Positions 1 through 45,916 of a stretch of 64,000 nt of DNA are shown here, piece by piece. The notes under the pieces are model-generated. The model searched no databases. It was given only the letters and a program-made list of their open reading frames with translations, and had not been told where the DNA came from. Source of the stretch: Lentisphaeria bacterium. GTDB lineage: Bacteria; Verrucomicrobiota; Lentisphaeria; Victivallales; Victivallaceae. The DNA is taken from NCBI GenBank assembly GCA_017450705.1, contig JAFSTC010000024.1, forward strand, positions 1 to 64,000, given 5' to 3'. Positions within the stretch are counted from its first letter, which is position 1; each line of letters begins with the position of its first letter. Both the position numbers and the translations under genes were made by a program.

Positions 1-1593
1 CGCCGCAAGTTCGGCGGGGAACTCGGCCAGAACGAACTTGATCGACTTGTCGGGCCAGAAACTCGTGGCCGTGAACTGCGCGGGAACGGCTTTGCCCGCG
101 GGAGAGACGATCCGCAGTTTGTCGATCCCGTAAATGCCGCCATCGGGGAACGGGAACCCGAACTTGACGAGGGCCGTCCGGGCGATGTTGCTCTCCTCCA
201 GAAGTTCGAAGGGGATCGCGGTCTTTTTGAGTTTACCCTTCTTCTGATCGACGGGGTACTTGATGGTGAGCGGCGGCGGAGGCGTCAACTCGATCCACGA
301 ATACTGCGCCCGGTGGACGGTGCTGCCCGGGACGCCCTTGTTCTTGAGCGGCAGATAGCGCACGATGCCGTTGTCGAAGCGGTAGTACTCCTTGGGGAAC
401 TTGTTGGGAACGGGGTCGTTGCGCCGGTCGCCGGTCGTATCTTTGACGATTTCCCCGATTCGGGCGTAAAAACGGATGATTACGGGGCGGCTCTTCACCA
501 CGGTGAGCGTCTGGCGGACGGACCGTCCGGGGGCGACAGCAGCGACGTTCCGGCCGTCTGGGGCGTCGGGAACGTTCCGGACAAGGTTTACGGGGAGACT
601 CCTCCAGCGAGCCGGCATTCCGGCCTGGACCTTCTCAAAGGAGGGATTGAGGATCTTCGTGCCCTCGGCCTCGAATCCGTCGAGGAAGACCCACGGCGTT
701 TTCCCGCCGCGGCGGCCGTCGGATTCGACATACATATTGATCCGCCCGTTGATGTCCGGCGTGAAACCGACGGCGTATTTTTTCCATTCCCCCGTCAGCG
801 GGGTCTTGCCGAGGGCGCAGGCTGTGAGAAGATCCTTTTTGCCATCGGTCCCGGAGTGGTCGAACTCAAGGCCGCCTTCGGCCGAAAGCGCGGTCATCCG
901 AACGTTGGAGGGATACTGCGCCCGCAGAAACAGACGCAGCCGCGGGCGGCCGTCTCCGGCGGAATCGCCCGGTGCGGCGGTTTTGCAAGGGGCCGTCTGA
1001 TCGGAAAAGAATCTTTCCTTCGGCATCTTCGTTGTCCCGCCGCTGCGGGCCATGAACCTCAGCGTGACCCGTTTCCCGGCGGTCACGCGGATTCCCTGGC
1101 GAATGGGCATTTTGTTGCAGACGCGGGCGTAGTTTCTGCCGTGGGCCGCGTCCCTTTGACCGAGTTTTTCCGTCATTTTCGTGTAGTAGCGCCAGCGGTA
1201 AAACTCATTTTTCACGCTCATCTGTTCGAAGGACGGATTGGCTACGGAAGAGTTGACCAGCTCCAATTTGTCGAAATCGACCCATTCGGCCTTGCCGCGC
1301 TCGCGGCTTTCGGTTGCTGCCAAACCGAGGACAACGCCCCCCGTCTTTCCGGGCGTGAAGGAGATCTCGTACGGCATCCATTCCTGCCCCGCCTCCTCCC
1401 CGGCGCTGAATTCCCAATGGTGTTTTCGGGCGGGATCGTTCGCCTGTCGGCGCCGGAAAGAAGATCCGGCAACTTCCCGCAGCCCGATCCCGGACGAGCC
1501 GGCATCCAGTTCGATGACGACCCCGGCGCCGGAAAGCATCGGCTGGCAGATGAATACAGAGGCTGCGGCGACAGCCAACGATCTTGCGAACAT
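1..1593 (-). CDS. Secreted exo-rhamnogalacturonan lyase-like protein (PcRGLX/YetA-type), 3' partial
   Basis: 531 codons are in the window; the C-terminus lies beyond position 1. I translated this frame by hand. It starts at ATG 1593 behind a GGAAGGG ribosome site and opens with a signal-peptide-like stretch (MFARSLAVAAASVFIC). Next come modules that begin with NPSFE (two copies), typical of beta-sandwich carbohydrate-binding domains. From about residue 440 the segment VPAQFTATSFWPDKSIKFVL resembles the N-terminal RIFT-barrel domain of the PcRGLX/YetA exo-rhamnogalacturonan lyases (PL26-like). The catalytic toroid domain would be outside the window, so activity cannot be judged. It lies 32 bp downstream of the GntR-GH38 gene and is probably co-transcribed with it. 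Predicted role: extracellular or periplasmic cleavage of pectin rhamnogalacturonan or a similar uronate-containing glycan. Confidence 0.6.
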   Translation of the reverse strand, partial: MFARSLAVAAASVFICQPMLSGAGVVIELDAGSSGIGLREVAGSSFRRRQANDPARKHHWEFSAGEEAGQEWMPYEISFTPGKTGGVVLGLAATESRERGKAEWVDFDKLELVNSSVANPSFEQMSVKNEFYRWRYYTKMTEKLGQRDAAHGRNYARVCNKMPIRQGIRVTAGKRVTLRFMARSGGTTKMPKERFFSDQTAPCKTAAPGDSAGDGRPRLRLFLRAQYPSNVRMTALSAEGGLEFDHSGTDGKKDLLTACALGKTPLTGEWKKYAVGFTPDINGRINMYVESDGRRGGKTPWVFLDGFEAEGTKILNPSFEKVQAGMPARWRSLPVNLVRNVPDAPDGRNVAAVAPGRSVRQTLTVVKSRPVIIRFYARIGEIVKDTTGDRRNDPVPNKFPKEYYRFDNGIVRYLPLKNKGVPGSTVHRAQYSWIELTPPPPLTIKYPVDQKKGKLKKTAIPFELLEESNIARTALVKFGFPFPDGGIYGIDKLRIVSPAGKAVPAQFTATSFWPDKSIKFVLAEFPAELAA

Positions 1594-1625: not shown

Positions 1626-4265
1626 CTATGTTTCCACGGCCAAGGTTTTTATCTCGAAGGGAGCAAAATCGGCGCATCGGGCCGGAACATCCTTCAAAAA
1701 ATCTCCTTCGGGAGTGATTTCCCGAATCGTTTTTCCATCCACCCATGAACCGGAAAGAGTGACCGCGGTCTTTCTTCCGCAGAACTCGTAGAACCGCAGA
1801 ATGAGCCGCCCGTCCTTTCTCATCGCTGCGGAAAGGGCGATATTCCCACGATCCCAGGAAAGCCATTCCCCCTCGGACAGGAGGCGGCTTTCCGTCGGCA
1901 TCCGGTTCAGGATATTTCCCAGCTCGGCGGCTTTGTCGATCCCGCCCGGTTCGTGCGCTCGGAATGCAAACCGGTATTCGTGGATCCCGTTGTCATAGGA
2001 TCCGGGATCGGGCTCCAGACAACCGTCTTCCACGCCGGTCCCGCTGCGGAGAAGCGAGAACGCGACATGACTTCCGGAGACCGAACAGCCTGGCGTCCCG
2101 CTGTTCGCGATCGCCAGCGCCGTCCGGGCATCGGAGAAATCCGACCAGTCCAGAACCGGCCAATCCCCCATCGCGAAACGGGAAGATGCCTGATCCAGGG
2201 GCCTCATCGTCCGTTCGTACCGGCTTTCCACTTCAAAATAGGGTTTTCTGACCAGGGAGCCGAAGGGTACGGAATCTGTCCGCACCATGGAAAACGGGTC
2301 GAGAAGGAGCGGAAAATCCACCAGAATCTTTGTATTGCGACCTTTAAAATCCAGCGTGATCTTCAGGAAGAAACAATCCTGATCCTTCGGAAAAAGGAAT
2401 TCTTTTTTCCACGCGAGAGACCGGAATCCGTTCCATGGTTTTCCGGTGTGGCCGATCATCGCCGGTTCAGGAGCGATCCGGCCGACGGAGAACGCATGAA
2501 AAAAAATCGGTCCTTCCAACACCGTGAACGGCTCCTCCTGAGAGCATTCGTCCGCAAGCGGGGCCGCTTTGAATCGTTCCGTCCACATGGAACCGAAATC
2601 GGGCCGGATCCGAATGGCGGAAAACTGTTCTCCGAAGACGTTGAACGGCGCGGTGATTTTTGGATATTTCCCGCTGAAATCCACCGCAAAACAAGATGTC
2701 TTGATCGTATCGGCGCCGATTTTTTCCGCATGCGCCGATGGAACACCCGCGGGAAAGATTTTTCCGCCGACGGGGGGAAGGTCTGCATAGAAAAAGCACT
2801 TGTCGCCGATCATCTCGGAGACAGTCCCGGCAGGCGCCGTCTCGGAACAGACCAGCTGACGCCCGCCGACCGACGAAGTGTTCGCGACAAAAAAAGTTTT
2901 CTTCTCGGTTTTCGTTCCGGTCGGCGCGCACTGCTTTTCCGCAAAGGCCAGAACTCCTGCGATCTTTTTCGTGATGCCTCTTTGGGCGGCATCGGTGCAA
3001 CAGCCGCAGAGACTGTCGTGGAAGGCGGTGCGCAGCAGTTCTTTTTCCTGCGCCTCGGAAGCGAGTTCCCGGCCATCGGCGGCGGCAAGCATCTCGGCCC
3101 GCCGCATAAGGATCTCCGCCCGGCGAAACTGCTGTTTGTTGCCGATCCTGGTGGAGTAACACCCCGTAAAAACGGGATTGAATTCTCCCTTGTAACAAGG
3201 GTGCTCCCGTCCGGCGATCCAATCGAAATAGTCTCCGACGGCGGAAAAACGGAGCTCCCGCATACCGTACCTGTTGACCTCATCGACCAGACGGCAGAAA
3301 CTCTCCTGAAAAAGCCCCTCCTCCTTGCAGAAAACGGCGAAATGCCGTTCCATGCCGGACGCCAGCGCTTCCAGTTCGCGTTTGGATTGGGAACGGGGAT
3401 CGTATATGACAGGAACATTCGTCAGATTTCCGATATCGTTGAGTTGAACGGGGGCCGAAACGAGAACCGATGTGCCATTGGCGCCCTTCCAGCAAAAAGG
3501 CTTCCCTGTATCGAGAGGTGCCGTCGGATTCGGAAGCCGTCCGGGGATCAAATACCTGTATCCGCACAGAGCCAGGACCTGGGGCGTCTGGATCGGCATT
3601 CCGAAAGCATCGGTCAGACAGGCGATCACGGGGACGATACCGAACGTCTTTCGATAATCGGCGCGCCCCCGGAGAAGTGCGCGGATCAGCGTTTCGCCGG
3701 AGATCATGTTGAGATCCGGAATGCACATTCCTCCGATCATTTCCGCCTGGCCTGTTTTCAGGAGAGCCTCCAGTCTCCTCCGGTATTCCGGAAGTCTGAC
3801 AGGGGTTTCAGACTGTTCGAAATAAAAGTGGAAATCAGGGTTTTGTTCGGCGATATCGATCAGTTTCCCGGTCTGCCGCCGCCTGATTTTGTCGGCCTCT
3901 TCGTAAGTCCGGCGCCAAACGAGATCGGAGTGGTGGGAGCAACTCAGAAAAACGGGAGGGAGGTCGTCTGCATATCCCCCGCGGCGGGAGGCGTCCGGTC
4001 CGGGATCCGTCCCCCCGACCGATGCTCCCGCTTGCCCGACAGTGCCGCGCACATAATATCCGCTGGCGCCGCGGCATTCGATGAAACCGTCATCGACCAT
4101 ATCGTTCAAAGCATGCTGGATCACGGAAGGACTGACGCCGAAATGCGCAGACATCCTGGAGATGGGGGCAAGTCTGCTCTGCGGAGGGAGCAGATCCCGC
4201 AGAATGCTCTCCTGGATCGCCTGCTTCACAACGATGTACTTGGGTGGTTTCGACACGATGGACAT
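1626..4265 (-). CDS. GntR-type winged-helix domain fused to GH38 alpha-mannosidase-like enzyme
   Basis: 879 aa, no signal peptide, so cytoplasmic. Residues about 8-75 form a GntR winged helix (ISRMSAHFGVSPSVIQHAL then a wing). After a Gly/Ser-rich linker, residues about 104 to the end read as a full GH38 enzyme. The HxD metal motif is in HHSDLVW (H112, D114), the nucleophile motif is CLTDAFGM (D219), and the third metal-binding site is FHDSLCG (H416, D417) in the middle three-helix domain, followed by a large beta-sandwich C-terminal part. Every catalytic motif I know for GH38 is present, so the enzyme part may be active. The arrangement resembles MocR regulators, where a GntR domain is joined to an aminotransferase-like fold. 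It could sense a mannoside or regulate its own operon, which includes the pectin-lyase-like gene downstream. Domain calls are firm; the regulatory role is inferred. Confidence 0.85.
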   Translation of the reverse strand: MSIVSKPPKYIVVKQAIQESILRDLLPPQSRLAPISRMSAHFGVSPSVIQHALNDMVDDGFIECRGASGYYVRGTVGQAGASVGGTDPGPDASRRGGYADDLPPVFLSCSHHSDLVWRRTYEEADKIRRRQTGKLIDIAEQNPDFHFYFEQSETPVRLPEYRRRLEALLKTGQAEMIGGMCIPDLNMISGETLIRALLRGRADYRKTFGIVPVIACLTDAFGMPIQTPQVLALCGYRYLIPGRLPNPTAPLDTGKPFCWKGANGTSVLVSAPVQLNDIGNLTNVPVIYDPRSQSKRELEALASGMERHFAVFCKEEGLFQESFCRLVDEVNRYGMRELRFSAVGDYFDWIAGREHPCYKGEFNPVFTGCYSTRIGNKQQFRRAEILMRRAEMLAAADGRELASEAQEKELLRTAFHDSLCGCCTDAAQRGITKKIAGVLAFAEKQCAPTGTKTEKKTFFVANTSSVGGRQLVCSETAPAGTVSEMIGDKCFFYADLPPVGGKIFPAGVPSAHAEKIGADTIKTSCFAVDFSGKYPKITAPFNVFGEQFSAIRIRPDFGSMWTERFKAAPLADECSQEEPFTVLEGPIFFHAFSVGRIAPEPAMIGHTGKPWNGFRSLAWKKEFLFPKDQDCFFLKITLDFKGRNTKILVDFPLLLDPFSMVRTDSVPFGSLVRKPYFEVESRYERTMRPLDQASSRFAMGDWPVLDWSDFSDARTALAIANSGTPGCSVSGSHVAFSLLRSGTGVEDGCLEPDPGSYDNGIHEYRFAFRAHEPGGIDKAAELGNILNRMPTESRLLSEGEWLSWDRGNIALSAAMRKDGRLILRFYEFCGRKTAVTLSGSWVDGKTIREITPEGDFLKDVPARCADFAPFEIKTLAVET

Positions 4266-4316
4266 TTTATGCCGTCTTTTCTTTTACCCTTTTCGTATCT
4301 TGTCATATCTTTTTAT

Positions 4317-4345
4317 ACTATACCATATTTTCTAAAGATTTGCAA
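4317..4345 (-). promoter_or_regulatory. Promoter of the GntR-GH38 operon with possible operator
   Basis: On the minus strand a TTGCAA box (4340-4345) lies 17 bp from TATAGT (4317-4322). The start region holds the symmetric TATAGTATA and a repeated ATATG, which could be the binding site of the GntR domain. The operator idea is inference from position only. Confidence 0.6.
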
Positions 4346-4428
4346 GCATTCCCGAAAATCCCGCAGCGCGAATGCGGCGGACCGGTCGGAGGTGTCGTTT
4401 CGAACGGACGAGAATACTGCGCGATATT

Positions 4429-12844: not shown

Positions 12845-13606
12845 CTACTGGAGATCCCAGTGATCGGCGGGCGTTCCCTCGTCCCGGGCGTAGCCGTTGG
12901 AGAAGGGTTCCTGCGTATAGGGGTTGGCGGCATTGCCCTTGACCGTGCTCAAATGCCCGTCGACCCAGGCCATGTTGACATCCTGTTCCCCCGAGTGACG
13001 CACACGGACGTGGCCCTCTTTGCTCGACGCCTTGACGCGGTTGATCAGATAATACCCCTGCTGATCGTCTCCGTCGCCGTAGGTCTTGTAGAACGCCGCA
13101 TCAGCGAGAGCGATCGTCGCGGACGCCCGCCGGACGCTCGTCCGTTTGGTCAGCGTCTTGAGTCCCGTCGCCCCGCCGCCGAGGTAGTAATAGTTGTACC
13201 CGGCGCCGCAGCGCTGCCACTGGGATTTGGTCAGTTTGGACTGCGTCGCCGCATCACCCGGATCATAGGTCATCAGCACGTTCAGCGGCGCCCGGGAGGC
13301 GACGGCGGGACAGTCGAAGATCTTCGTCGAATTCACGTGTTTGCCGTACATCGTCAGGATCGCCGTCCAGGGGATCGGCTGCGTCGCCCCAACGTCGTAC
13401 TTGTAGGGGACGAAATACTCGTCGTTGGCGTCGCAGTAACTGTGGTGCGCCATGATGACCTGGCGGATGTTCGCCGTGCATGTCGACGTTTTCGCCCGCT
13501 CCCGGGCCTGCTGAAGGGCCGGCATCAGCATGGCGGCCAATATGGCGATGATCGCGATCACGACCAGCAGCTCGATCAAAGTGAAAGTCTTAAGTTGTGT
13601 TTTCAT
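12845..13606 (-). CDS. Prepilin-type (pseudopilin-like) protein, locus A
   Basis: 253 aa. The N-terminal methylation helix [20 protein letters not shown] starts at residue 8 and keeps the Glu at position +5, but the residue before Phe is Thr, not the usual Gly. The globular part ends with an H...MAWVDGH segment like the H-X9-DG motif of the DUF1559 pseudopilin-like proteins common in Planctomycetes and Lentisphaerae. The protein should insert in the inner membrane and could assemble into a type II secretion-like pseudopilus. It lies between an FAD oxidoreductase and a large secreted enzyme in one minus-strand operon. I start at ATG 13606, after AAAGG; a longer in-frame extension upstream overlaps the oxidoreductase gene and is not credible. 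Confidence 0.88.
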
Positions 13607-13647
13607 GGTAAAATGCCTTTGTGTTATATGTTGAAGTGGTGTTTTTG

Positions 13648-14997
13648 TCACGAAAGTTCCGCGCCGAGACCGATCAGTTTTTTGCGGACAACTCTGCCGT
13701 CGATCTCCGCGGGGGAAGTGTCCGAAAGAGCGGCCAGCGCCGCGCCGACGCCCGCGCCCTGCCCGATGGAGATCGCCGTCGGCATGATCCGCAGACTGCT
13801 GTGGACCGCCGCATCGGCGGAGACCGGACGGCCGCCGACCGTCAGATTGCCGCATCCCGCAGGGACGACGCAGCGGTAGGGGATCTCATAAAACGCTCCC
13901 GGCCGGAGATCCCGCAGGACCGTTCCCGCGCCATGGGGGGAATGGATGTCGATATTGTAAGTGCTTCTTGCGATCGCATCCTCGAATCTCGCGCACGCGG
14001 CAAAATCCTTTTCCGTCAGCCGGTAGAGGCCGCGGATCCGGCGGCTTTCGCGGACGCCGATCTGCACGCCCATGGACATCAGACGGCTGTTCTCGAATCC
14101 CGGCGCCTCGCTCCGCAGGAACTTCACCAGCTCCCGGAGCTGCCGCCGTCCCTCGATCTCCGCCTGCGAAAAACTCGCGCCGTCCGTCGGATCGAACCCC
14201 TGCACCCGGGTCGTGTTGAAATGGACGACCCCCTCGTCCGCGATCTGGAAGGGAAATACCAGCAGATCCTCCCGGGGGCACCTGACGCGGCCCTGAGCCC
14301 GCGCCTGACAATAAAGGTCGTTGAGCCGTTTCTTCCATGCGGGATCCATGAAGCGCTCCCCCTCGGCGTTCGTGACGAAGGGGATCTTCACGTGGGACAG
14401 TTTGAAGCACAGCGTCATCGGCTGACAGCCGCCGTCTTCGTCGCCCATCTCGAAAGGACACCCGGCCATCGCCGCCAGTTCTCCATCGCCGGTGCAGTCC
14501 ACAAAAACCTTCGCCCGGATCACGCCGAAGCCGCCCCGGGTGTGACAGACCACCTTCCGGATCTTGCCGTCGGCAGTATCGACGGCGACCGCGCGATGGT
14601 GGTACAGCAGCCGGACGCCGGAGGCGAGAAGAAGATCCTCAGCCGCCAGAGCCGCGGCGGCCTTGTTGATCGCCCGATTGCTGTAATCCGTCGCCGATGC
14701 GACCCGGCGGCGTTCGGCTTCAGGGAGGTACTGGAGCATCGCCTCTTTCCACTCCCCGTAGACGGGCGCGTCGAGAGGATGCTGCCGCGTGCCGCTGATC
14801 ATGAAGGGTTGGACCTCGCCGACCGCCGCCATGCCGCCGGGAACGCCGTAGGCTTCGATCAAGAGCGTTTTCGCCCCGCATCTGGCGCTCATCAGCGCGG
14901 CTCCCAGTCCGCCGGGCCCGCCGCCGATGACGGCCACGTCGGCGCTGTCTATGACCGGCAAATCCGTTTCCGAAGGACAACTTCTCAGTTTCATCAT
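13648..14997 (-). CDS. FAD-dependent oxidoreductase (FAD_oxidored family)
   Basis: 449 aa. A Rossmann dinucleotide-binding motif sits at residues about 19-45 ([20 protein letters not shown]), followed by [13 protein letters not shown], and a second FAD contact at [16 protein letters not shown]. The family (PF12831) occurs often in polysaccharide loci of Lentisphaerae and Planctomycetes with unknown substrates. There is no signal peptide, so it is cytoplasmic. It is the first gene of the locus A operon and diverges from a PocR-AraC regulator. It starts at ATG 14997 behind AGGAG (a second ATG follows at once). Predicted role: oxidation of a sugar or other small molecule. Confidence 0.85.
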
Positions 14998-17501: not shown

Positions 17502-19793
17502 TCACAAAAGAATCGTCCGGTCGGGAACGATCTCCTGTTCTTTGAAATCCTCGATCGGGATGATTTCCAGCCGTTCATACCAGATCGCCTCGTCCCGGTT
17601 GACCAGCGAATTCATCCAAAACATGCCGAGGGAATCGGGCTGAACGAGTTTGACTTTTCCCAGAACGATCCAATGGTACTTGCCGTCGTTGTATTCCGGT
17701 TTGAACTTGCCGTCGAAAGCGCGGTTCTGCTTGAATCCGCCCCCGTGATGGAACGGCATGAAACTGAACATCGTGCCGCTGTTCCGCGGTTTTTTCAGTT
17801 CGGTCCTGACCCGCAGACGCAGGACATAGGTCTTGCCGGGAACGAGATAGTCGATGAACTTGATGTAGTTCCACTGGATCCCCCAGGGCTTGTTGCCGAT
17901 ATGCCGTGACGATTTTCCCCTGGCAGACTGCGGATCATCCAGATAGTCCGAGAAACCGTTGACGACCGTCGGCTTCCAGATCGTGACGGAGTTGGCGCAG
18001 TAATCGCCGGGCTCCCGCCCGCGTCCGGAAAACTCGATTTTGGCCTGACAGCGTTTCAGAAAGTCTTTCCTGACGGTGGCGTTGAGCGGAACGTAACCCA
18101 TCAGCGACTTCATCCGCTCATAGTTCTTTTTGTACTTTTCGATGCCGTAGACCTGAGCGTTCCCCTTGAGCTCCATCGTGAGATAACAGATGTACTCACG
18201 GGCGATACGGCCCTTCAGGACTTCGTTGTCTTCCGCTTTTTTCAGGGCGGATTCGAAGAGCTGCTGCATTTTGTCCCGCTCCTCGACGGTGTACTGGAGC
18301 ATGGTGAAGGATTCTTTTCTGTGCTGCACTATGAATCTCTGCCACGCCTTGCGCATCAGCGCGACATATTCTGTCATTTCCGGAGCGGCTTTGCCGAAAT
18401 ACGAGGAAATGAATTCGGCTATGAGGGCGTCCATATCCGCCCGGGGGTTCCACATGAGCTGGCAGTAGACCCATTTTTTCAGGGCATACATGGAGGCTCC
18501 GCCGTTGGTGCAGTCGGCAAAATAACCGATCACCTTGTTGTCCGCCAGATAGCACAGGGAGTCCCGCACCTGATCGAAGTTGGGGTATGGAGTGAAAGCT
18601 GCGATGTACTCCAGATAATCCCAGAAGAGCACGTTCATTTTTTCAGCAGCATAACTTTTTATTGCGGAGTCGATCCTCCCGATTTCGGAGAGCGGAACGA
18701 GCATATTGATCGCGTTGTAACGGGCAAGGATCGGCGCGAAGAAAAGGAGTACGGCGGGATGCGGTTTCACGGTCAGCTTGACCGGATCATACACCAGTGT
18801 CGTGATCCTTGCATTCGGATTTTCCCTGACAAGGAGCTCCGCGACCTTGTTGGCCAGCATGAGCTGAATATCGGAGGGATTGTGCTTTTTGAAAAGCGGC
18901 GCGCATTTTTCGCATTCGCACTGGGTGGAGGCACCGTCATTGACCGAAACGCTGAAGTAACAAGCGTCGGGTTCTTTTTTGATCTGCTCGCGGATCCGTT
19001 CCATCATCACCTTGGGAATATCCGGATTGGTGTAGCAGACCGCCCCGTACTGGTAATTCTGACGGACGCGCTTGCCGTTCTGAAGAGCGAAATACTCGGG
19101 ATGCTTTTCATAATATTTCTTCGGATTGACCAACGCGGTATAGGTGTGCATGAACAACCGCGAATTCAGACGGCCTCCTGATTCGGTCGGCAAATCGGTG
19201 TGATACGATATCGGCGCCAGACGGAAGAACTGCTCATCCTTCGGTCTGCCGTCGTGCCCGTAGCGGTACATGATCTCCCGGATCTCGAACGGCGGCGCGT
19301 AATCGCGGGGAACGACGGTCAGCGGCTTTCCCGCAAGTTCGGGGATACGGACTTCGCCCGGCTCCCTGCATTTGGGAATGTTGCTGTACGGAACCGCATA
19401 CCAGCGGCAGCCGAGATCTTCCTGCAGATACGAAAGAACACCGTTCAGCGGCCCGGGAAAGCCGCCGCGGATGAAGAGATTTTTACCCTTGGCCTTCAGA
19501 CTGTAACTCTGCGGTTTCAGCGCTTCGGTGAAGCCGTTGTTCTTTGCGAGAACCGTCTCGCCGACGCTGATCGTGGAACCGGAAGTTTTTCCGGGTTCCG
19601 CGACAACGGGAACTTTGACCTTGTAGAGTTTTTCCAGATATTCCGCGAGCAGCGCCGCCGAATACTTCTCCTGTTTCGTCGCCTTTTCGGGGATGATGAT
19701 CGTGTAATCCTGCATCTTGCCGAGCTTGACTGGCTCCGCGAAGAGGGCGGCGACGCCTGCCAAAAGTAAAAATGCCGTCAATATTTTTTTCAT
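17502..19793 (-). CDS. Secreted DUF4838 protein with glucuronidase/hexosaminidase-like N-terminal fold
   Basis: 763 aa with a signal peptide (MKKILTAFLLLAGVAALFAE). Residues about 28-150 match the alpha/beta domain shared by alpha-glucuronidases and GH20 enzymes (KYSAALLAEYLEKLYKVKVP, GPLNGVLSYLQEDLGCRWYA). The central region is DUF4838 (FSVSVNDGASTQCECEKCAP, NVLFWDYLEYIAAFTPYPNF), a barrel whose CxCxxC stretch is typical of the family. The C-terminal 150 residues look like a beta-sandwich that could bind carbohydrate. The enzymatic activity of DUF4838 is not established; glycosidase activity is a guess from fold. It is the last gene of locus B, 17 bp after the GH130 gene. Confidence 0.82.
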   Translation of the reverse strand: MKKILTAFLLLAGVAALFAEPVKLGKMQDYTIIIPEKATKQEKYSAALLAEYLEKLYKVKVPVVAEPGKTSGSTISVGETVLAKNNGFTEALKPQSYSLKAKGKNLFIRGGFPGPLNGVLSYLQEDLGCRWYAVPYSNIPKCREPGEVRIPELAGKPLTVVPRDYAPPFEIREIMYRYGHDGRPKDEQFFRLAPISYHTDLPTESGGRLNSRLFMHTYTALVNPKKYYEKHPEYFALQNGKRVRQNYQYGAVCYTNPDIPKVMMERIREQIKKEPDACYFSVSVNDGASTQCECEKCAPLFKKHNPSDIQLMLANKVAELLVRENPNARITTLVYDPVKLTVKPHPAVLLFFAPILARYNAINMLVPLSEIGRIDSAIKSYAAEKMNVLFWDYLEYIAAFTPYPNFDQVRDSLCYLADNKVIGYFADCTNGGASMYALKKWVYCQLMWNPRADMDALIAEFISSYFGKAAPEMTEYVALMRKAWQRFIVQHRKESFTMLQYTVEERDKMQQLFESALKKAEDNEVLKGRIAREYICYLTMELKGNAQVYGIEKYKKNYERMKSLMGYVPLNATVRKDFLKRCQAKIEFSGRGREPGDYCANSVTIWKPTVVNGFSDYLDDPQSARGKSSRHIGNKPWGIQWNYIKFIDYLVPGKTYVLRLRVRTELKKPRNSGTMFSFMPFHHGGGFKQNRAFDGKFKPEYNDGKYHWIVLGKVKLVQPDSLGMFWMNSLVNRDEAIWYERLEIIPIEDFKEQEIVPDRTILL

Positions 19794-19810: not shown

Positions 19811-20872
19811 TTATCTGCTGATCTTATATTGCTTGACGCAAGTCAATGCTTCCGAAAGGCTTGTCACGGCTGTTCCGACGGAACGGTCGCAGATGCCGTA
19901 GAAAAGCCGTATCTCATCGCCGGTGACGACGTTGGCGCAGGGGAAGATGCAGCGGGGATAAGGGCCGCCGTTACATTCGAGCTCCCCTTCCGGCTCCATG
20001 ACCGGCCGGGGCGTCCGGCACAGGACTTTGCGGGGGTCTTCCCTGTCCAGCAGGGCCAGACCGATCCGGTAAACACCCTGCCGGTCGACGCCGTGATAGA
20101 ACATGAGCCAGCCGTCATCGGTCGGGATCGGTACGCCGGAGGGGCCGACTTTCATGCTTTCCCAAGTCTGTTCCGGCTGGAGAAGCATGTAATCATCGGG
20201 AATATCGACCCCGTCCCGCAGAAGCCAGGCTTCGGCGATCTTGTTGGAACACCATCTGTTGACGGTGTCGGTAAAGAGGATCCAAGCCCGCCCCGGTTCG
20301 TAATGCATGGGCAGCAGCCAGGCCGGACCGGAACTCGGCCGGTGCAGATAAACATATTTCCCGCCGATCTTTTCCGGAAACAGCACCACGTTGGCGTCGT
20401 TCATGTGTTCGCTGGAAACGGGACCGAGCCTTTTCACCGTCTGCCAGTCGCGCGTGGCGGCGACCCCTACCCGGCGGTTGTTGCGTTCCCAGGCGATGGC
20501 GTGCTCTCCCCGTGGATCGAACTTGCGCTTCCCCGCCGCCCAATCCTTCATGTTCGTGCACCGCGCGGCGTAGGTGATGTAAAAAGTCCCCTCGAGGTAC
20601 GTTACCCGCGGGTCTTCTGTCGTTCCGTGATCGAAGGCGTTTTCATCCGGATCGGGCGGCAGAAACGGTTTTTCGTTCACGTCGAAACGAACCCCGTCGC
20701 CGCTTTCGGCATACCCCAGCTGGATGCAGCCCTTTCCGTCGTTTCCGGAGAAAACCATCCGGTATTTCCCCTTGTCGTAAACGACGCCCGGATTGAAGAC
20801 GCAATGCGTCGTCCACGGCAGATCCGGATCCGGTTTCAGGATCGGATTCTTTTCCCGAGTGATTTTCAGCAT
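19811..20872 (-). CDS. GH130-family beta-mannoside phosphorylase/hydrolase
   Basis: 353 aa, cytoplasmic. Five-bladed beta-propeller features: FNPGVVYDKGKYRMVFSG, then TTEDPRVTYLEGTFYITYAA, whose EDPR holds the conserved proton-donor aspartate of GH130, and NDANVVLFPEKI. GH130 enzymes mostly phosphorolyse beta-1,2 or beta-1,4 mannosides to mannose-1-phosphate, saving ATP; a minority are hydrolases lacking the phosphate-binding Arg/Lys/His set. I cannot decide between the two from sequence alone. It lies in one operon between the pseudopilin (24 bp upstream) and DUF4838 genes. With the GH38 fusion at 1.6-4.3 kb it points to mannose-containing substrates. Confidence 0.85.
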   Translation of the reverse strand: MLKITREKNPILKPDPDLPWTTHCVFNPGVVYDKGKYRMVFSGNDGKGCIQLGYAESGDGVRFDVNEKPFLPPDPDENAFDHGTTEDPRVTYLEGTFYITYAARCTNMKDWAAGKRKFDPRGEHAIAWERNNRRVGVAATRDWQTVKRLGPVSSEHMNDANVVLFPEKIGGKYVYLHRPSSGPAWLLPMHYEPGRAWILFTDTVNRWCSNKIAEAWLLRDGVDIPDDYMLLQPEQTWESMKVGPSGVPIPTDDGWLMFYHGVDRQGVYRIGLALLDREDPRKVLCRTPRPVMEPEGELECNGGPYPRCIFPCANVVTGDEIRLFYGICDRSVGTAVTSLSEALTCVKQYKISR

Positions 20873-20896: not shown

Positions 20897-21571
20897 TTAT
20901 TTCGTCAGAGAAAAATGGGATTTCCCCGAGCCTTCGAATTCATCCTGCGTAACGGAAGAAACCGAGCCGTTGATCTTGGCCATATTGGCCCGTGCGGAAT
21001 GCCGCAGACAAATCGGCCGCCAGGCGCCCGCTTCTCTTCCGGGCAAACGGGCCGTTTCCTGAAAACACGCGCCGCCAGTACTGTTGTCGATCAACCACTT
21101 CGCCGACATTTCCGAGATGTAGATGAACCCCGGATTGACCTTGCCGACTTTCAGTTTGCCGGCCCCCTGGTTAGTTGCACTGTATGCGGCATAAACGGAA
21201 CCGACGATGGTATTATTGGGCGCTCCCGCAACTCTCGTTTCGGAAGGACACTCACCGATTTTGGATTTATACGGAACATATGCCTGCAGCCTTTGCGCTC
21301 CGTTCCAGTACCCCGTCACGAAGTTTTCGAGATTCCAGGACCAGCCGTTGGTCGGCGGCAGCATGTCGTTCCAGTCATGGGAATAGGCAAGAGCCCCGGT
21401 CATCATCTGCCGCATATTGCTCATACAGGAAGCGGAACGCCCCTTCTCCCGCGCCTGCTGGAGCGCGGGCATGAGCATGGCGGCGAGGATCGCGATGATC
21501 GCTATGACGACCAAAAGTTCTATTAAAGTAAAACGGCGACCCGACGACACACGGCTGCGATTTGATTTCAT
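20897..21571 (-). CDS. Prepilin-type (pseudopilin-like) protein, locus B
   Basis: 224 aa from ATG 21571; a GTG two codons upstream (21577) is also possible because of the AAGGAAAGGA ribosome site. The helix [20 protein letters not shown] follows SSGRR, so the residue before Phe is Arg, not Gly. The C-terminal segment [15 protein letters not shown] is a variant of the H-X9-DG motif with Asn in place of Asp. It is the first gene of an operon with GH130 and DUF4838 and is divergent from an AraC regulator. Expected to be an inner-membrane, type II secretion-related minor pilin; that function is inferred from the family. Confidence 0.86.
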
Positions 21572-21637
21572 TTTCACGATATCCTTTCCTTTCGAATCGT
21601 TCCGGCATCCTCAAAATGCCGTCCCGTGACATTTTTT

Positions 21638-41398: not shown

Positions 41399-41472
41399 AA
41401 ACGGGGCGGTTTTGAAGTCAACAACACTCCATCGACATGGAACCAAATGATATGCAAAAGAAAGGAACGATC

Positions 41473-42276
41473 ATGAAACACGCGTCAGACCACATCAACC
41501 GAAAAGAGCAGAGGGCTTTCACGCTGATCGAGCTCCTGGTCGTCATCGCCATCATCGCCATTCTGGCGTCGATGCTGATGCCGGCCCTGCAGCAGGCCCG
41601 GGAGCGGGCCAAATCGGCCAACTGCGTTTCGCAGCTCAAGCAGGTCTCTCAGGCGACGATCCAGTACGCCAATGATTTCGATGGCTGGATCTGCTCCACG
41701 GACAACACCGTTCGGGACACGGGGACCTGGATGGGGATCATGACGGGACAGTTCAAGTGGGCGAAAAAGGCCTATATCCCCGCCAAAGTCCTCCGGTGTC
41801 CCTCCGTTCCGAAGTGGCAGGAGGGTGGCGATCCGGGCAATCCTTCCTGGCCCTTCGGGACCTCCTGCAACCGCAACACGTACGGGATGTGGGTATTCGC
41901 CAAAACCACGGAACGGACCCTTTCCTACGTGCCGGAGCGCATCGCCAATATCGGACCCATAAGCGGCAGATTCGAGAGCGGCGCCAACCTGATCGGATAT
42001 CTCAAGTACGAAGGAATGAAAAATCCCTCGGGCACGGTCCTGCTGGCCGATTCCGGCTTTGAATGCACCAACGCCAACTACGGTCAATGCGCCTATCTTG
42101 TCGCCACGAATGCGACGACGTCGTGGACCAACCTCATCTGGCGTCTTCACAATGACCGTGCTTCCACGGCGTTCCTCGACGGACATGTGGCCCAGCTGAG
42201 CGGCGGCGAATTGCTCGCCACTCCCATGCGGGTCAATGTTTCCCTCAGCGGAGCCGGCATCAAGGAAACGAGGTAA
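41473..42276 (+). CDS. Prepilin-type (pseudopilin-like) protein, locus C
   Basis: 267 aa. The helix [20 protein letters not shown] follows EQRA, so Ala precedes Phe where Gly is usual; Glu+5 is kept. The C-terminal [19 protein letters not shown] fits the H-X9-DG motif exactly. The cysteine pattern and the NRNTYGMW segment resemble DUF1559 proteins. I start at ATG 41473 after AAAGGAACGATC; two earlier in-frame ATGs lack a ribosome site. Last gene of the locus C operon, 74 bp after the dehydrogenase gene, so it could also have a separate promoter, though none is obvious. Confidence 0.88.
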
Positions 42277-44605: not shown

Positions 44606-45868
44606 TCAGAAGAACAACCGGGGCGGCGGCGGGAGGGAGCGGTCTATGTAACGCTCCATGAGGTCGCCGAGGGTGTTCCATGAGGCGTAGTCGCGGGCGT
44701 ACAGGGGCTGTCCCGAGTCACCGTCGACGTTTTCGGAGAGGGATCCCTGAATACTCAGACTGCGGCAGATGCTTTTGAGGATGTCGCGGGAAAGCGCGGC
44801 GGCCTCCTCCTCGAACCCGTAGCGGAGAAGCGCATGAAACACCATCCAGCCCAGCGGGATCCAGACGGGGCCCTGCCAGTTGGAGTTGGTGAGTCTTTCG
44901 TATTCGTCGAAACGGCCGGGATTGCCGATCACGGCGCAATTGTAGTACTCGCTTTTGCGGGAGAGACTCCGGATGCCGAAAGGACTGCGGAAATGCTCCG
45001 GCGAGAGGACGTAGCGGCCGATCATCTCCCGGGCATGTTCGCAAGAAGCGGCCCCCGTGTACAGCACCGGAAGCGCGGAACAGCTCAGATAGGCGAAGGC
45101 CCCGAAGCCCTCCGGATGGTCGGCGTCGCCGAAGCTGACGCGCACCCGGTCCCGGCCGGTATCCCTGGCGCCGAAAGATCCTATGACATCGCTCCAGAGC
45201 CAGCGGTTGACGGCGTCCTTGAGGACCGCGGCCCGTTCCCGATACATGTCGGCCTTGCTGTCGTCGCCGAGCCGGGAGGCGATGTGGGCCAGAGACCGCA
45301 GTTCGGCATAAAGGTAGCCGTTGAGATCCGGGGAAATGATCGTGGAGGGGTGAATGATCGAGCTCAGGATCTCGTTGTCCATGCCGGAAAAATAGGCCGG
45401 TCCGTCCCAGCGGCAGAGCCCGTGGGCGGCTCCGTGGGCGGAAAACCAGAAACCGATGAACTTTTCGAGGATCGGGAGATCCTTCGCGGCGCCGTCGAGA
45501 TCGCCGCTCAGCTCGAGAAGCTGGGCCGCCGCCTGACAGAGAAAGGGCTGGCAGGTGAACCCGGGGTGAAAATAATTGGGCCCGCCGTCGGCCAGGATCG
45601 CATTGGGGATGAACCCGTCGGAGCGGCGATATTCGAACATGTTGTCGAGAAAATCGCGCAGGTGCGAGAAGTCGCCGTCCGCGGCGATGCGAAGGGCGGA
45701 AAAATAGTTGTCCCAGCAGAAGAGCAGTCCCGAATAAAAGGATCCGGCCGTGATGGCCAAATAGGGATGGCGGATCGCCCCCTCCGGTTTTCGCCGGATG
45801 AGCCGGCACAATTCCGTGATGAAGGCGTTGACCCTCGCCAGGTCTTCCCGCTGTGATGAGGCGGCCAT
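44606..45868 (-). CDS. GH63/GH37-like (alpha/alpha)6 glycoside hydrolase
   Basis: 420 aa, no signal peptide. Helical toroid signatures of the trehalase/glucosidase I/MGH clan: LLFCWDNYFSALRIA (with the Asp often used as acid), RRSDGFIPNAI, LCRWDGPAYFSGMDNE and TNSNWQGPVWIPLGWMVFHA. Substrate could be trehalose, glucosyl- or mannosylglycerate or an alpha-glucoside; sequence does not decide. Start at ATG 45868 behind AAGGAGG; a longer start at 45907 adds 13 residues without a ribosome site. Divergent from the ankyrin protein gene. Confidence 0.8.
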   Translation of the reverse strand: MAASSQREDLARVNAFITELCRLIRRKPEGAIRHPYLAITAGSFYSGLLFCWDNYFSALRIAADGDFSHLRDFLDNMFEYRRSDGFIPNAILADGGPNYFHPGFTCQPFLCQAAAQLLELSGDLDGAAKDLPILEKFIGFWFSAHGAAHGLCRWDGPAYFSGMDNEILSSIIHPSTIISPDLNGYLYAELRSLAHIASRLGDDSKADMYRERAAVLKDAVNRWLWSDVIGSFGARDTGRDRVRVSFGDADHPEGFGAFAYLSCSALPVLYTGAASCEHAREMIGRYVLSPEHFRSPFGIRSLSRKSEYYNCAVIGNPGRFDEYERLTNSNWQGPVWIPLGWMVFHALLRYGFEEEAAALSRDILKSICRSLSIQGSLSENVDGDSGQPLYARDYASWNTLGDLMERYIDRSLPPPPRLFF

Positions 45869-45916
45869 GGCATATTCCTCCTTTTCGAAAGACGCTCCGT
45901 TCGCCAAGTCCCGGTT

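Follow-up and report, generated by a model that had tools for sequence, protein, structure and literature searches.

To our knowledge, the bacterial GntR regulators with a sensor derived from an enzyme belong mainly to the MocR aminotransferase type. In MocR/GabR proteins, an N-terminal GntR winged helix is joined to a whole enzyme fold that acts as the sensor, and direct-repeat operators are common (PMC5320631, PMC4494728). NanR of E. coli, a sugar-responsive GntR protein, binds cooperatively as three dimers to a (GGTATA)3 direct-repeat operator situated downstream of the polymerase site (PMC8012715). In plants, BZR1-BAM7 and BZR1-BAM8 consist of a DNA-binding domain and a beta-amylase fold; they are listed as catalytically inactive, and mutation of the predicted ligand-binding Glu reduced the transcription-factor activity (PMC6394054). 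A GH38 effector domain occurs in none of the GntR subfamilies that PMC4494728 lists.

Here, we analyzed a stretch of 64,000 nucleotides (the window) from a Lentisphaeria bacterium (GCA_017450705.1, contig JAFSTC010000024.1), which encodes a fusion of a GntR domain to a GH38 glycoside hydrolase (Table 1). We consider it probable that this protein acts as a one-component regulator of its own operon, which serves polysaccharide degradation, and that its GH38 part is a sugar-sensing, possibly still catalytic module. A previous sequence-only reading had seen the two domains in one uninterrupted frame. Indeed, the single ORF begins with ATG and has no internal stop, and both domains are recovered by Pfam and by predicted fold. 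The Pfam matches are GntR (PF00392) at residues 12–72, with 27.3 bits barely above the cut-off of 27, Glyco_hydro_38N at residues 111–277 (E 1e-21), Alpha-mann_mid at residues 366–440 (E 1e-8), and Glyco_hydro38C2 at residues 816–875 (22.2 bits, cut-off 22). The last GH38 domains are thus marginal in Pfam, yet their predicted fold is complete. According to Pfam and NCBIfam, what follows the HTH is GH38 domains and no other effector domain. An aminotransferase domain was sought among the profile matches of the fusion protein and none was found, the PdxR/MocR matches being essentially confined to the HTH.

Table 1. Features of the GntR-GH38 locus, in positions of the window; residue numbers refer to the fusion protein.
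Feature	Position	Strand	Remarks
GntR-GH38 fusion gene	1626..4265	-	879 aa; 15 full-length members aligned, 6 further loci
GntR winged helix-turn-helix, residues 8–73	4047..4244	-	Pfam GntR; AF2 superposition on AraR-DBD/operator complexes 1.1–1.2 Å; dN/dS 0.02–0.11
Variable linker, residues 74–102	3960..4046	-	pLDDT <50 at residues 76–100; mean pairwise identity 12%; relaxed dN/dS
GH38 domain (barrel, three-helix, beta-sandwich parts), residues 103–879	1629..3959	-	Pfam; fold matches 2wyh/2wyi, 5kbp, Ams1
HxD metal motif, H112 and D114	3924..3932	-	invariant 18/18
D219 (DAFG), predicted nucleophile/metal ligand	3609..3611	-	invariant 18/18
E315-E316, column of the GH38 acid/base Asp	3318..3323	-	E315 invariant 18/18
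FHD motif, H416 and D417	3015..3020	-	invariant 18/18
Operator candidate, four 10-bp direct repeats TATAAAAAGA TATGACAAGA TACGAAAAGG GTAAAAGAAA	4278..4317	-	directly downstream of the -10 box
-10-like box TATAGT	4317..4322	-	read from sequence
-35-like box TTGCAA	4340..4345	-	read from sequence; 17 bp from the -10-like box
Next operon gene, signal-peptide-like start, PcRGLX-like domain	1..1593	-	starts 32 bp past the fusion stop; cut by the contig end

The AlphaFold2 model (mean pLDDT 83.5, from an alignment of 18 sequences) is composed of a winged helix (residues 9–72), a low-confidence linker (residues 76–100) and a GH38 body. Residues 97–879 fit whole GH38 enzymes, with the S. pyogenes enzyme as the best superposition (2wyh; Z 31.6, rmsd 3.3 Å over 723 residues). 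Modelled alone, residues 1–80 superpose closely (rmsd 1.1–1.2 Å) on the operator-bound AraR-DBD (5d4r/4egy; Z 13.6–13.8), and also on the DNA-binding domains of YvoA, NanR and GabR (Z 12–14, AraR-DBD included).

The enzyme part had been described as a complete GH38. This holds for the fold, which is whole in the model, and for the metal and nucleophile residues, with the HxD motif, D219 and H416 kept; it is qualified by a Glu where GH38 enzymes usually have their acid/base Asp, and by the marginal Pfam matches of the last domains. Across 15 fused proteins and three stand-alone relatives (n = 18), H112, D114, D219, H416, D417, Q151, R243 and E315 are invariant, and the metal and nucleophile residues are unchanged despite a mean pairwise identity of about 41%. 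Glu (E315/E316) occupies the acid/base column in the fused proteins and in their nearest stand-alone relatives, where the majority of the other sampled GH38 clades have Asp. Since the nearest stand-alone relatives share the Glu, the Asp-to-Glu change is older than the fusion. Stand-alone GH38 relatives with no GntR domain were seen at L106, L107, L108, L168 and L158, and the three that were aligned likewise carry Glu in this column. The Glu could serve as a catalytic carboxylate, and the GH38 module is possibly still catalytic.

Alternatively, the GH38 part might mainly be a working cytosolic glycosidase, as in trigger enzymes, with the HTH adding autoregulation and with turnover, rather than simple binding, setting the switch. 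Such a role would explain why the metal and nucleophile residues together with E315, R243 and Q151 are invariant in fused and stand-alone proteins, and why dN/dS is similarly low in both domains. However, Glu stands where the acid/base Asp is usual, our search found no characterized enzyme in this GH38 subfamily, and one genome (G249, L104) already encodes a conventional GH38 protein adjoining its fusion. We regard the working-enzyme account as tenable but less likely than the sensor reading.

A palindromic operator was rejected after a scan of 15 upstream regions, which gave no shared inverted repeat, and direct repeats were therefore examined. Most fused genes have tandem 10–11-bp direct repeats, TAYRAAAA-like, at the promoter. 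In the window, the candidate operator (4278–4317) overlaps the region 4290–4350 singled out in the sequence-only reading; the tandem repeats themselves are absent from that reading. At L103, the units are TATGAAAAGA TATGATATAA TATGGAAAGA TACGAAACAA TATGAAAAGA TATACAGGAG; at L101, the repeats follow in 11-bp steps; and at L100, they stand in the other orientation (GTATTTTTTT GTATTGTTTT GTCTTTTTTA GTATTGACAT). A test for TAYRA chains was too rigid, under-counting L101, L103 and L100, and a lag test was therefore used instead. Exact 5-mer repeats were counted in 12 non-redundant upstream regions: lag 10 gave 14, lag 11 gave 11, lag 20 gave 16, and lags 12–18 gave none. In shuffled controls, the counts at lags 10 and 11 averaged about 1.3 and never exceeded 8. 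Lags 10, 11, 20 and 21 together gave 45 repeats, whereas windows of matched AT content drawn from these contigs gave 5.3 ± 2.8, and none of 5000 draws was as high.

The layout of the repeats relative to the promoter bears on the direction of control. In the window, they extend from the -10 box in the downstream direction, which is a repressor position. Repeats also overlap or follow the -10 box at L032, L036, L038, L101 and L103, filling the spacer and stretching past the -10 in the last two. On the other hand, they lie upstream of the -35 at L033, L034, L035, L037, L099, L100 and L105. These seven loci would suit an activator, which from such a position recruits polymerase once the glycan is bound. 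As a general account, however, activation is unlikely given the six loci with repeats at or past the -10 box, and given that L034 and L099 have them on both sides. The upstream and two-sided arrangements nevertheless make activation possible in some members. For the window copy, repression remains the direction that we favor.

The patterns used for searching were drawn up after the promoters had been viewed; thus, the fair tests are the held-out loci and the rest of the genomes, where the patterns are nearly absent. In 8 whole genomes, GTATNNTTTTGTATNNTTT has four matches, all 80–120 bp upstream of a fused gene, and zero in the reversed control. In 9 further genomes it has two exact matches, one of them lying at the G426 fused gene and the other elsewhere. 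The exact match in G406 (L174) was considered as a regulon member and rejected, as it lies at the boundary of WYL-like and DnaK-like genes and looks like background. Pattern scans for a second target operon found none; one-mismatch matches are common in AT-rich genomes. Throughout the 4-Mb genome that contains the window, TAYGAAAMRNTAYGAAAMRNTAYR with up to two mismatches matches at the two fused paralogues only (4294–4317 in the window), where the motif has opposite orientations relative to the genes. As for the held-out promoters, the distantly related L170, L171 and L172 all show the repeats. L154 is closely related to L103, and L167 gives a weak case; no repeats were found at L157 and L159 (different recognition helix) or at L156 (inside another operon). 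Nor were any found upstream of the stand-alone GH38 genes L168 and L158. Furthermore, the fused proteins of L036 and L038 have the recognition helix SVAYRAL instead of SVIQxAL, and their repeat is changed too, to GAAACAAAAA.

In the genome that contains the window, further GntR genes (L092, L072, L079 and L080) have promoter-near direct repeats with a period of 10, 11 or 21 bp and of other sequence, and direct repeats may be common among GntR regulators of this group. This observation lends something to the notion that the tandem repeats serve another regulator, the fused HTH binding elsewhere or nowhere. We find that notion improbable, because in 17 genomes hardly any exact or near-exact match lies away from a fused gene, the stand-alone relatives L168 and L158 have no repeats, and at L036/L038 a changed recognition helix goes with a changed repeat. 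The repeats are accordingly taken as the predicted DNA site of the fused HTH.

How widespread the fusion is was examined by searching near relatives, the phylum (388 genomes), the order (137 genomes) and plasmid records, along with a contig pattern scan that found close relatives only. Fifteen full-length fused homologues, 36–62% identical to the window protein, were aligned. The same genome has a second full-length fusion on contig C94 (38% identical), and relatives have them in G012, G052 (two) and G057 (two); a Lentisphaeria contig from sheep colon (L032) encodes one that is 62% identical. The phylum and order searches added fusions in G324, G356 and G249 (two each), G306, G406, G407, G409, G422 and G425, the order-wide search contributing 6 further fused loci (18 with E <= 1e-100 among 137 genomes). 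One copy in G406 shares its start region with L032 and another has an internal TAA; in G423 and G426, contig ends or a break in frame interrupt the fused gene. Outside the phylum, the search covered plasmid records and the contig scan; the plasmid records gave distant GH38 matches only, none of which covers 80% of the query. In all, full-length fusions span about a dozen genomes.

In a maximum-likelihood tree of the GH38 parts, all 15 fused sequences fall in one clade (100/100), sister to the stand-alone L106 and L107; the HTH parts likewise group in a single clade when placed among 45 GntR domains (SH-aLRT 96). A single fusion event explains both. Pairwise dN/dS is 0.02–0.11 for the HTH, the most constrained part of the fusion, and 0.06–0.14 for the catalytic part, with a relaxed linker (mean identity 12%). 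Judged by these ratios, both ends of the fusion are under purifying selection and the linker is not. Thus, the search for other proteins with GntR followed by GH38 yielded an entire clade, and the outcome that would have undone the sequence-only reading, a sequencing error with no homologue of the same architecture, did not occur. The GntR-GH38 fusion is real. That two genes were joined by error, or that a vestigial HTH sits on an enzyme, is thereby ruled out for practical purposes: the genome is a draft of 117 contigs, but one clade of full-length fusions in about a dozen genomes, 36–62% identical and with the HTH most constrained, speaks against it. The sequence-only reading knew of no described GntR-GH38 class, and our literature searches (GntR with GH38, regulator-glycoside hydrolase fusions, trigger enzymes and Victivallis GntR, most subscription journals lying outside their coverage) likewise gave no description. 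GntR-GH38 looks like a conserved family of gut Lentisphaeria, previously undescribed as far as we found.

At most loci, the fused gene is followed by neighbors on the same strand. Besides the PcRGLX-like gene of the window, the downstream neighbors encode prepilin-like (N_methyl), GDSL esterase, pectate-lyase-like, PcRGLX-like, GH3, beta-helix, CBM4_9 and DUF4838 proteins. Large secreted neighbor proteins are homologous among L033, L034, L100 and L101, and also between L036 and L103. The neighbors vary among loci and none points to mannose; as a set, they fit a polysaccharide-degradation operon, without naming mannose. Of the mannoside/pectin operon proposed in the sequence-only reading, then, the secreted polysaccharide-degrading surroundings stand, whereas mannose finds no pointer. 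In G249, the gene for the conventional GH38 protein, which has no HTH (L104:11425–13917), lies immediately upstream of the fusion gene and shares its strand; a similar large ORF is found at the same place and strand in G356 (L102:10506–13001). Elsewhere in the window, prepilin-like proteins are encoded beside secreted-protein genes (12845–13855, 20897–21577 and 41437–42276), an arrangement shared with fusion operons in other genomes. Genes for a GH130 mannooligosaccharide phosphorylase-like protein (19811–20872), a DUF4838 protein (17502–19793) and an MGH1-like glycoside hydrolase (44606–45907), all on the minus strand, lie at least 13 kb away from the fusion. A second regulator-enzyme fusion was noticed on contig C72 of the same genome (L109:130–2280, plus strand): 716 aa, with GntR at residues 24–86 and DUF4434 at residues 416–694, its stretch 18–342 matching regulators of about 357–370 aa. 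No relative with this GntR-DUF4434 fusion was found in 60 genomes.

In the mechanism that we infer, the family would go back to one ancestral event, in which a free-standing cytosolic GH38 enzyme gained a GntR winged helix. On the direct repeats at the operon's own promoter, phased at 10–11 bp, several copies of the protein would sit side by side; the array bound in the window, extending from the -10 box downstream, would block transcription. The operon would supply secreted polysaccharide-degrading proteins. A glycan fragment entering the cytoplasm could then act as inducer by docking in the GH38 active site, shifting the domain arrangement and releasing the promoter; if the GH38 part is still active, the enzyme would destroy the inducer and reset the switch. 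The regulator role raised by the sequence-only reading is supported by a conserved class, the strongest constraint on the DNA-binding domain, a dedicated repeat operator candidate and polysaccharide-degrading neighbors. More tentatively, a catalytically competent glycoside hydrolase might be the sensor of a new GntR subfamily, which reads a glycan by both binding and cutting it and switches the operon for that glycan through assembly on the repeat array.

If true, a glycoside hydrolase sensor with constrained metal and nucleophile residues would represent a second route from enzyme to transcription factor. The dedicated repeat operator candidate makes the proposed sensor role directly testable. 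Lentisphaeria are rich in both polysaccharide operons and GntR genes, with 46 GntR matches in the present genome; we found little published work on the control of these operons. A defined regulator-operator pair therefore provides a handle on them, and might also be used as a glycan biosensor part.

Having proposed a sensor derived from a glycoside hydrolase, we would place it among known systems as follows. First, what is common with MocR/GabR is only the GntR-plus-enzyme architecture: the MocR fold is a PLP-binding fold-type-I aminotransferase, and here it is GH38. Likewise, the C-terminal effector domains characteristic of the FadR, HutC, YtrA, AraR and PlmA subfamilies are absent, GH38 taking their place. 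Second, NanR resembles the fusion in its GntR winged helix, its direct-repeat operator and the position of that operator downstream of the polymerase site in the window layout; it differs in having a non-enzyme effector domain and 6-bp repeat units, as opposed to GH38 and 10–11 bp. Third, the GH38 part shares its whole fold and its metal and nucleophile residues with stand-alone bacterial and fungal GH38 proteins (2wyh/2wyi, 5kbp, Ams1 6lz1 and Bl_Man38A 7ufr), but stand-alone GH38 alpha-mannosidases have no DNA-binding domain and, in most sampled clades, an acid/base Asp instead of the Glu. Fourth, like BZR1-BAM, the fusion joins a DNA-binding domain to a glycoside hydrolase fold; the plant proteins, however, combine a eukaryotic BZR1 domain with a beta-amylase, whereas here a GntR domain is combined with a GH38 that keeps its metal and nucleophile residues. 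On the best reading, GntR-GH38 works like MocR/GabR or BZR1-BAM, and is a member of neither.
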